DNA from: an uncultured Dehalococcoidia bacterium
GTDB taxonomy: Bacteria > Chloroflexota > Dehalococcoidia > Lucifugimonadales > Lucifugimonadaceae
DNA: 64,000 bases
Assembly: GCA_958295935.1 (NCBI GenBank)
Contig: OY282385.1
Location: 744,001-808,000, forward strand
Direction: 5' to 3'
The translations under genes were made by a program, and so were the position numbers. Position 1 is the first letter of the stretch. Every line of letters begins with the position of its first letter. The notes under the pieces are model-generated. The model saw only the letters and a list, made by a program, of their open reading frames with translations. It was not told the DNA's origin and made no database searches. Positions 33,755-36,336 of the stretch are shown piece after piece.

Positions 33755-34909
33755 ATGAAGATAACTTCCGTGAAGCCATTCCTGGTGCATCCGGGTTGGC
33801 GCAAGAACTGGCTGTTCGTAAAGGTCGAGACCGACTCAGGCATCCATGGCTGGGGCGAAGCTTACACGCAGGCCGACCGGGACCGCACTACCGCCGTACA
33901 CGTGGAGGAACTGGAGCGTTACCTGACTGGACTCGACCCGTTCAACATCAAGCGCTTCACACAAACCGCCTGGGACGACTACGGACAGCGGCGAGGCTCT
34001 ATGGAGATGTTCAGCGCCGTCAGCGGCATCGAGCAGGCGCTCTGGGATATTGTGGGCAAAGCGGTTGACGAGCCAGTCTACCGGCTGCTTGGCGGCGCAT
34101 ACCGTGATCGCATCCGGGTGTACGCAAATGGTTGGTACTGGGGGGCTGCGAGCGGAGACGACTACGCCAAAATGGCGGAACAGACGCTGGAGAAAGGGTT
34201 CTCGGCGCTGAAGTTCGACCCTATATCCGGTCCATGGCGCTATCACCCCGGGTCACGAGCAATCGACGACGCGGCGCATAAGGTGCGCAGGGTACGGGAG
34301 GCGGTGGGGCCGAACGTGGATCTGCTAATCGAGATACATCGGCGCCTGGCGCCCATGCACGCAATTGACCTGGCCGGTCAGATAGCGGAGTACCGGCCCT
34401 TCTGGTTCGAGGAGCCCTGCCCCGCGGAAAACCTGCGCGCTCTCGCGGAGATACGTAGGCAGATAAACATACCGGTGGTAACGGGCGAGGCGATCTATGG
34501 CAAGGCGGGTTTTGCGCAAGTATTCGAGAGCCGCGCTGCCGACGTCATCAACCCCGACGTGGCCAACACAGGGGGGATTCTGGAGCTGAAGGAGATTGCG
34601 GCTATGGCCGAGCCGCACTACGTGGCGGTGTCCCCGCACAACTACAACTCTACGGTGATGGCGTTGGCGGCTACCGTGCACGCGTCGGCCACAATGCCCA
34701 ATTTCCTGATTACCGAGTACTTCGTGCCCTTTAGCGAGGTGGGCAAGCAGGTCTCGAACCAGTTGGTTCCTGAGAACGGCTACGTATCACTGCCTGACAC
34801 GCCGGGGCTGGGCGTGGATATAGATGAGTCGGCTCTGGAGCGGTTCTCGTTCCGAAGGTATCCGGCGCGGCGCGTGCGCACCCCTGGCGAGGAGGCGACG
34901 GGCAGTTAG
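33755..34909 (+). CDS. enolase-superfamily acid-sugar dehydratase (galactonate dehydratase-like)
   Basis: A 384-residue mandelate racemase/muconate lactonizing family enzyme. Metal ligands can be placed at Glu193 (L-I-E-I-H), Glu219 or Glu220 (F-W-F-E-E-P) and Glu245 (V-T-G-E-A), with His295 in S-P-H-N-Y and Lys153 in A-L-K-F-D, matching the D-galactonate dehydratase group more closely than the paralogue at 19896-21077. Predicted to remove water from an aldonic acid. AGAGAGA precedes the ATG. Part of the catabolic enzyme repertoire of this genome. Confidence 0.88.
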   Translation: MKITSVKPFLVHPGWRKNWLFVKVETDSGIHGWGEAYTQADRDRTTAVHVEELERYLTGLDPFNIKRFTQTAWDDYGQRRGSMEMFSAVSGIEQALWDIVGKAVDEPVYRLLGGAYRDRIRVYANGWYWGAASGDDYAKMAEQTLEKGFSALKFDPISGPWRYHPGSRAIDDAAHKVRRVREAVGPNVDLLIEIHRRLAPMHAIDLAGQIAEYRPFWFEEPCPAENLRALAEIRRQINIPVVTGEAIYGKAGFAQVFESRAADVINPDVANTGGILELKEIAAMAEPHYVAVSPHNYNSTVMALAATVHASATMPNFLITEYFVPFSEVGKQVSNQLVPENGYVSLPDTPGLGVDIDESALERFSFRRYPARRVRTPGEEATGS

Positions 34910-35108
34910 GTTTGGAGCGGGGATGCGCCCGCCACAAACCTCAGCCTCAGGTAGAGGCGGAGTTTTCCGGCCAGTACGCTGCCCGCAGTTCCGGCTCTGC
35001 GGCGAGGCCTTGAGCGGCTTCTACGAAACGTCTTGCGGTGTGGAGGGCTACTTTAAGAAGGTTGATCATTGTGGCTTTCGTGTTTCTGTCAAGTAATGGG
35101 GGGCAAAT
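34910..35108. other. region downstream of the attenuator-like hairpin
   Basis: Between the enolase-family stop and the terminator there is a 40-codon minus-strand frame at 34947-35069 starting M-I-N-L-L-K-V-A-L-H. It has no recognised family and no ribosome site. A TTGACA on the minus strand near 35085-35090 could be a -35 element with AATGAT 16 bases further on. Confidence 0.3.
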
Positions 35109-35194
35109 AAAAAACCCCTGCGAACCGGATGCAGGGGGAAGTCCGTCAAGCAACGAGCCGTTTTTTGGCACTACGCGGACGCGCCACCCCCTGC
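35109..35194 (-). promoter_or_regulatory. attenuator-like alternative hairpins
   Basis: Read on the minus strand: arm 1 GCAGGGGG (35187-35194), arm 2 CCCCCTGC (35131-35138) and arm 3 GCAGGGG (35115-35121) followed by TTTTTT (35109-35114). Arms 2 and 3 make an intrinsic terminator with a 9-base loop. Arms 1 and 2 make an 8-bp alternative helix, supported by an inner GTCCG/CGGAC helix (35176-35180 with 35141-35145) and an innermost GCC/GGC hairpin. The two folds exclude each other, as in amino-acid attenuators. Arm 1 lies inside the coding part of the Cys-rich leader peptide. Confidence 0.6.
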
Positions 35195-35248
35195 GGGCTG
35201 ACAGGAACAAGTACAAGCGCACATCGTTTGAGGCGTGATCTCCTTCAT
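35171..35248 (-). CDS. cysteine-rich leader peptide (25 codons)
   Basis: ATG 35248 to TAG 35171. The middle reads M-C-A-C-T-C-S-C, four Cys codons in seven. It begins three bases after the predicted transcription start, so it would be translated leaderless or from the second ATG (35224), with AAGGAG 15 bases upstream. A ribosome stalled on the Cys codons leaves arm 1 free to pair with arm 2 and block the terminator; a ribosome that reaches the stop covers arm 1 and allows termination. No cysteine or sulfur gene lies downstream, so the target is missing or unrecognised. Confidence 0.5.
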   Translation of the reverse strand: MKEITPQTMCACTCSCQPAGGGASA

Positions 35249-35257
35249 AACCCGCTC

Positions 35258-35285
35258 AGTATACTACGGCGCAGCCGGGGCGCAA
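35258..35285 (-). promoter_or_regulatory. promoter of the leader-peptide unit
   Basis: On the minus strand TTGCGC (35280-35285) and TATACT (35258-35263) are separated by 16 bases, placing the start of transcription near 35251. Confidence 0.6.
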
Positions 35286-35478: not shown

Positions 35479-36336
35479 TCAATCCGGGGAAGCGGGGGCA
35501 AGGCCAAGCAGCCTGGAGGCGTTCTGGCCGAGTACAAGTTGCTCGTCGGAAAGGGGCATACCGGCTGCTCGTAGTCCAGCCAGGGCCCTCGCCTGACTAA
35601 CAAGCGGGTAGTCAGAGCCAAACAGTACTCGCTCGGCGCCGCAAGAGGCCGCGGCCACGTTGAACACGTCGGGCCGGTACAGGTATGGAAAAGCTGCGGA
35701 ATCGAAGTAGGCGCGGGCCAACGACTTTCGCACTTCCGGCATGAGGGCGTAGAACGGCAGGCCGCCGCCAAAGTGCGCAAATATGAACTCATTGGAAGGG
35801 TAGGCTCTAACAAGGGCCTCCAACATGTCCGGAGTAACCGACCCCTTACCGCGATAGGCGTGGCCCACCGGCTCAGATGCGTGGAACAACACGGGGATTG
35901 CCAACTCGCGGGTTGCGTCGAGCAAAGGCGCCAGAATCGCCAGGTCTGCATCCGCTATGCCCTGTGAATCGGGATGAAGTTCACCCACTCCTCGGGCGCC
36001 TGCCTCCACGCAACGGCGGATCTCTGTAACTGCCTCCGTACCCCATAGTGGATTAACGCTGCAAAACGGCACGATTCGCCCCGGATGGGATCGCGCCGCC
36101 TCGAGTATGTAGTCGTTGGACGTGCGGGCGACGCCGGCGTCCGTCCATCCGTAGCCGGCAGCTACGGATAGGTCTACACCGGTGCGGTCCATCTCTTCGA
36201 CCAGTTCGCAGGCGGTTGCTAAACGGCTCCGGCTGTCGGCGAACAGATCGCGAAAAGTGGCGTCCAGGCGGCGAATGCGCTGCCCGTCGAGGCGGAACTC
36301 GGCGGGCAGTATGTGAGTGTGAGAATCGACTATCAC
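35479..36336 (-). CDS. amidohydrolase-family metal-dependent hydrolase
   Basis: A 285-residue TIM-barrel hydrolase of the COG2159 (amidohydrolase 2) group. D-S-H-T-H-I-L at the N-terminus gives two metal ligands; V-L-F-H-A-S-E near residue 150, F-A-H-F-G-G-G near 192 and F-G-S-D-Y-P-L near 247 supply the rest. Members hydrolyse or decarboxylate cyclic and aromatic carboxylates. After its stop 230 bases pass before the leader-peptide promoter; nothing else is seen there. Confidence 0.85.
   Translation of the reverse strand: MIVDSHTHILPAEFRLDGQRIRRLDATFRDLFADSRSRLATACELVEEMDRTGVDLSVAAGYGWTDAGVARTSNDYILEAARSHPGRIVPFCSVNPLWGTEAVTEIRRCVEAGARGVGELHPDSQGIADADLAILAPLLDATRELAIPVLFHASEPVGHAYRGKGSVTPDMLEALVRAYPSNEFIFAHFGGGLPFYALMPEVRKSLARAYFDSAAFPYLYRPDVFNVAAASCGAERVLFGSDYPLVSQARALAGLRAAGMPLSDEQLVLGQNASRLLGLAPASPD

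Follow-up and report, generated by a model that had tools for sequence, protein, structure and literature searches.

The poly-Cys leaders of mycobacteria have no conserved terminator hairpin (PMC1262725), and actinobacterial Cys leaders have likewise been described without conserved terminators (PMC1262725, PMC4633059); their control is cited as translational in PMC13236596, which points to Canestrari 2020. The uORFC-8-2 motif, located upstream of cysS in Rhodobacterales, is a predicted Cys-codon attenuator with an intrinsic terminator (PMC8632094). A search of open-licence papers yielded no account of cysteine attenuation in Chloroflexota. Here, we describe a locus in a 2.75-Mb genome, located in a stretch of 64,000 nucleotides (the window, which is the whole stretch of DNA that was analyzed), that we predict to be a ribosome-mediated transcription attenuator sensing charged tRNA-Cys and controlling one gene, which encodes a tiny Cys-free protein. 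We assign this reading a probability of roughly 0.85, a figure that covers the attenuator and its small-protein target and not a role of that protein as an effector.

The first-pass annotation of this DNA had described a 25-codon frame with four Cys codons in seven, mutually exclusive arms forming an 8-bp antiterminator and a 7-bp terminator, and six T residues, and all of these were found as it had described them, with every part of the switch on the minus strand and at the positions that it had given (Table 1). Arms 2 and 3 pair over 8 bp and arms 3 and 4 over 7 bp, and the arm that had been placed inside the frame after the Cys codons is arm 2. The calculated energies in the window are −6.7 kcal/mol for the 1:2 hairpin, −20.7 kcal/mol for 2:3, and −13.6 kcal/mol for 3:4; since 2:3 is stronger than 3:4, termination in cysteine-replete cells depends on the ribosome or on 1:2 pairing. 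The promoter that had been claimed is plausible, but its −35 box is weak. The leader ATG lies 9 nt past the −10 box, which would give the leader mRNA almost no untranslated 5' end; 19 of 26 loci have a −10-like box 6 to 11 nt ahead of this ATG, versus 18% at random positions. Another promoter candidate, TTGACA...AATGAT (35092-35065, between the terminator and the small open reading frame [ORF]), was rejected because its −10 element overlaps the ATG and cannot serve that start codon.

Table 1. Features of the leader, the small ORF, and the flanking genes in the window
Feature	Coordinates	Strand	Description
Amidohydrolase gene (PF04909)	35479..36336	-	Upstream neighbor, also on the minus strand; serves as a synteny marker and is not assigned to the switch
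Promoter-like element	35258..35285	-	TTGCGC (35285-35280), 16 nt, TATACT (35263-35258); read from the sequence
Leader frame	35171..35248 (35248-35171)	-	MKEITPQTMCACTCSCQPAGGGASA; 25 codons, Cys at codons 10, 12, 14, and 16 (35221-35201)
Arm 1	35201..35207	-	UUCCUGU; overlaps the last Cys codon; able to pair with arm 2
Arm 2	35187..35194 (35194-35187)	-	GCAGGGGG; in the leader frame, directly 3' of the Cys codons; supplies the 5' half of the antiterminator
Arm 3	35131..35138	-	CCCCCTGC as DNA, CCCCCUGC as RNA; common to antiterminator and terminator
Arm 4 and U-tract	35109..35121	-	GCAGGGG (35121-35115) and U6 (T6, 35114-35109); intrinsic terminator
Target gene (small ORF)	34947..35069 (35069-34947)	-	40-aa protein MINLLKVALHTARRFVEAAQGLAAEPELRAAYWPENSAST; 40-codon frame 3' of the terminator; homologues in 29 genomes
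Imperfect inverted repeat	34908..34941	-	AGGTTTG...CAAACCT; located between the small ORF and the converging gene; read from the sequence
Enolase-superfamily gene	33755-34909	+	Next gene in the window; convergent with the small ORF

A DNA search of the whole region against 60 relatives matched only the window itself, because the DNA of the relatives is too diverged; a protein search found them. The first homologues came from searching the small protein against 76 genomes of the family, and every genuine one has a poly-Cys frame and a terminator upstream. When a profile was run over 250 genomes of the order, it picked up a diverged form, 44 residues long, in another genus (g9), leader included, and two more g9 genomes were recovered with the covariance model of the leader described below. 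In total, the small protein was found in 29 genomes of one SAR202 order (the window's own genome, 4 of g11, 16 of g12, 7 of g9, and G151), nearly all of them Candidatus Lucifugimonadaceae, with a poly-Cys leader ahead of every copy. G151 is a contig of another family; its leader runs off the contig end, and what is left of it matches the covariance model. Outside the order, the protein was absent from samples of 393 genomes of the class and 400 of the phylum, apart from a match in G528 that is antisense to a coding gene and was discarded as spurious; a match in G229 that lies inside a long frame was discarded as well. The cultured Candidatus Lucifugimonas marina JH1073 (placed by NCBI in Chloroflexota, Dehalococcoidia, SAR202 cluster, Candidatus Lucifugimonadaceae) has the module too, with a small protein of 35 amino acids, and its loci L118 and L004 are both located on chromosome CP046147 (3,094,136 bases). 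The relatives, in which the first-pass annotation had proposed to look for the leader with its arms and for the content downstream, hold a poly-Cys leader, the arms, and the same small protein; the Cys codons and the arms, on whose conservation it had made its case depend, are both conserved, and the feature survived. L103, L118, and other g12 leaders carry a second, C-terminal Cys cluster (ACCTC or similar) past arm 2, which is missing from the window and the g9 copies; two stall sites in the g12 leaders may tune the response.

In all 26 loci compared, arm 3 is able to pair with either arm 2 (6 to 12 bp) or arm 4 (6 to 10 bp), and arm 4 is followed by a U-tract of at least 5 in 26/26. A short candidate 1:2 pairing of 4 to 8 bp between the Cys-codon region and arm 2, which would complete a trp-type logic, is also present in 26/26 loci. 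In an alignment of 18 sequences from which the window was left out, the 2:3 helix is 95.7% paired and has both-sided compensatory changes at 4 of 9 pairs (12 cells); neither this cell count nor the covariation score was matched in any of 500 shuffles, counts in which the kinship among the sequences remains, and slid versions of the helix scored far lower. Swapping arm 3 between loci reduced pairing (246 observed versus a maximum of 240 in 5,000 permutations). The covariation that had been suggested as a check was found for 2:3, whereas for the terminator helix 3:4 both-sided changes were seen with anchored arms, from which the support for this helix comes, and none on the MAFFT alignment. RNAalifold, run on a 26-row alignment, mostly missed the arms and had those of g9 misaligned; anchored arms and a g9-free alignment were used instead. 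The covariance model, R1, built from 18 leaders with the window excluded, recovered the window with an E value of 1.8e-10, and no Rfam family's gathering score was reached by the window leader or by ten relatives' loci.

We propose that, when cysteine is ample, the ribosome would translate past the Cys codons as far as the stop codon and hinder arm 2, so that arms 3 and 4 would pair and transcription would stop at a length of about 140 nt. With Cys-tRNA in short supply, the ribosome would stall at the Cys codons and disrupt the 1:2 hairpin; arm 2 would then pair with arm 3, no terminator would form, and the protein of 34 to 44 amino acids would be made. The geometry of the leader would suit this model, as a ribosome at the first Cys codons should leave arm 2 free and a passing one should hinder it. 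Comparison of the genomes shows that the parts are conserved and linked, that the arms can pair in alternative ways with compensatory change in 2:3, that the small protein is under coding selection, and that like leaders precede sulfur genes in relatives; we infer that the ribosome stalls, that the terminator is read through, and that cysteine is what is sensed.

Further poly-Cys leaders with terminators were obtained in the same order from weaker matches of the covariance model and from a pattern scan, and Pfam assignments were made for the targets of ten representatives. The genes downstream of these sister leaders include PAPS_reduct (cysH, cysD) with cysN or ATP sulfurylase (sat), cysH-cysDN, Sulf_transp with TusA-like, NIR_SIR sulfite reductase, ThiF with a PALP enzyme, AhpC/TSA peroxiredoxin, DUF4395, and TauE. 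Most sister leaders precede genes of sulfur assimilation and cysteine synthesis, and the presence of similar leaders ahead of sulfate, sulfite, thiosulfate, and cysteine genes supports cysteine sensing. The proposal of the first-pass annotation that ribosome position on Cys codons governs attenuation is also supported by the Cys codons, arms, and terminator kept in all module-bearing relatives. A strict leader pattern matched 7 of 10 family members and 1 of 284 other genomes of the class, in which others a reversed control gave 4 matches. The window's own genome yielded no second Cys leader in the scans used, other matches to the poly-Cys pattern there being different frames that lack the leader-arm-terminator architecture. 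Its cysH, which is followed by sat (L259, G000:C1:1238508-1239029, minus strand), is without a Cys leader, unlike the cysH of related genera, so that the case for sensing in this genome rests on the relatives.

The leader could be real and its signal a different one, namely thiol-oxidative stress or a modification of or damage to tRNA-Cys that slows the Cys codons. L183, L193, and L258, whose Cys codons come in runs (CCCCCC or CCCNCC), do precede AhpC/TSA peroxiredoxin genes, which suggests that thiol stress is a component of the response and that thiol defense is under cysteine control; however, the assimilation and biosynthesis genes behind most sister leaders make a stress signal unlikely. 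Cys leaders are also found upstream of DUF4395 genes (L239, L246, L247, and L253), suggesting that DUF4395 belongs to cysteine or sulfur metabolism. L188 (G164:C21:6697-6816) has six consecutive Cys codons and a terminator; the frame that comes next has no assigned function. L202 (G005:C9:38006-38120, minus strand) has a leader that reads, from the sequence, as the Met-codon-rich frame MELFVKTMNMNMMMTFLKGDV, and a terminator, with downstream genes resembling O-acetylhomoserine sulfhydrylase and metX; it is likely a methionine attenuator.

The small ORF, from which the first-pass annotation had passed on with the remark that there was no recognized target gene, is a gene conserved in 29 genomes and linked to the leader. 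Its relatives encode proteins of 34 to 44 amino acids, with substitutions mainly at third codon positions and a pN/pS of 0.25 to 0.39, and by these measures it is a protein-coding gene under purifying selection. Neither Cys nor Met after the start occurs among the 954 residues of 26 copies, an absence that is suggestive but, as the copies are related, supplies no statistic. Searches of Pfam, NCBIfam, and PDB sequences returned no relative, and by the same searches the target of the window copy is not a known sulfur gene. The predicted structure is a single helix spanning residues 4 to 32 (mean pLDDT of 69.7, which is low confidence), and this helix is amphipathic, with a moment of 0.60 across 18 residues. 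No clear Shine-Dalgarno site was seen at the small ORF. The idea of a C-terminal CysK-binding tail (GLGI motif) was dropped, as most copies have this motif in an internal position.

The product that matters might instead be the terminated leader RNA or the leader peptide, acting in trans, with the small ORF secondary. An RNA of ∼140 nt would be released in the cysteine-replete state, and such action has been proposed for rnTrpL/peTrpL of Sinorhizobium (PMC7298713). A trans-acting RNA, however, would need neither the conservation of the small ORF as a protein nor its constant link to the leader, and the leader peptides differ from one another except at the Cys codons and arms; we therefore regard this alternative as quite improbable. 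Among the outcomes that the first-pass annotation had listed (a small RNA, a short peptide, or a lost target), the peptide came close, whereas the conserved 40-codon frame tells against an RNA-only product and a lost target.

Read-through might alternatively yield an antisense RNA that regulates the enolase-superfamily gene, which does converge on the small ORF in the window. This neighbor is not conserved, however: downstream of the small ORF, the relatives have PhyH, methionine aminopeptidase-like, or other genes on either strand, while the leader/small-ORF pair persists and the loci examined, those of g9 among them, have an amidohydrolase gene upstream. Moreover, a terminator-like hairpin is located directly 3' of the small ORF in three g9 genomes by a computed scan (and in two more by eye), which indicates that the unit holds one gene, and antisense control is thus very improbable. 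In the window, the inverted repeat past the small ORF is a possible transcript end, without a U-tract. A chance combination of a short ORF and a terminator without function, for which nothing but the weak −35 box speaks, can be dismissed, given that the combination of a poly-Cys short ORF, three compatible arms, and a T-run was found at one place in the window and in 0 of 150 first-order shuffles (by itself, the 4-Cys pattern has an expectation of 0.10 per window), that an independently built model matches it, and that 29 copies are conserved.

SAR202 bacteria make up 10 to 30% of deep-sea planktonic prokaryotes (PMC10444878), and Cys leaders in the relatives of the window's genome front genes for sulfate, sulfite, thiosulfate, cysteine, and thiol defense. 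The window copy, by its regulation alone, singles out a small protein that lacks an annotation and, beyond its start, has no sulfur amino acids, as a candidate cysteine-starvation effector. Tentatively, and by analogy with anti-TRAP in tryptophan control, this protein might be induced by starvation and adjust the supply or use of cysteine; our guess would be that it forms an amphipathic helix and binds to an enzyme, a regulator, or the membrane. It could, with similar reserve, found a new family of cysteine-starvation effectors without sulfur amino acids that are governed by a Cys attenuator of their own and act on the cysteine or sulfur metabolism of SAR202.

Like the leaderless, poly-Cys short ORFs found in mycobacteria and other Actinobacteria, the leader described here is a short, apparently leaderless, Cys-rich frame with sulfur or cysteine targets in relatives; it differs in its intrinsic terminator (26/26 loci) with alternative pairing, its phylum, and its small-protein target. 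With uORFC-8-2 it shares predicted ribosome-mediated attenuation, Cys codons, and an intrinsic terminator, but the Cys codons of that motif are a tandem pair rather than clusters, its target is cysteinyl-tRNA synthetase, and its hosts are alphaproteobacteria. The 1:2, 2:3, and 3:4 alternatives and the codons for the sensed amino acid are those of classical trp/his-type attenuators, whereas the amino acid sensed here would be cysteine and the target is one small protein and not a biosynthetic operon. In Bacillus subtilis, uncharged tRNA similarly turns on a small protein, anti-TRAP (rtpA/yczA), that tunes the pathway of that amino acid (PMC11255114); its sensor includes a T-box, it is a zinc protein with no shown sequence link to ours, and the equivalent role here is a proposal. 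TrpM (trpX) of Streptomyces (PMC5036795) is also a small protein tied to amino acid metabolism, but its gene lies within the trpCXBA locus. The mechanism that we propose is thus already known; what is new is the lineage in which it is found and its dedication to a single tiny protein.
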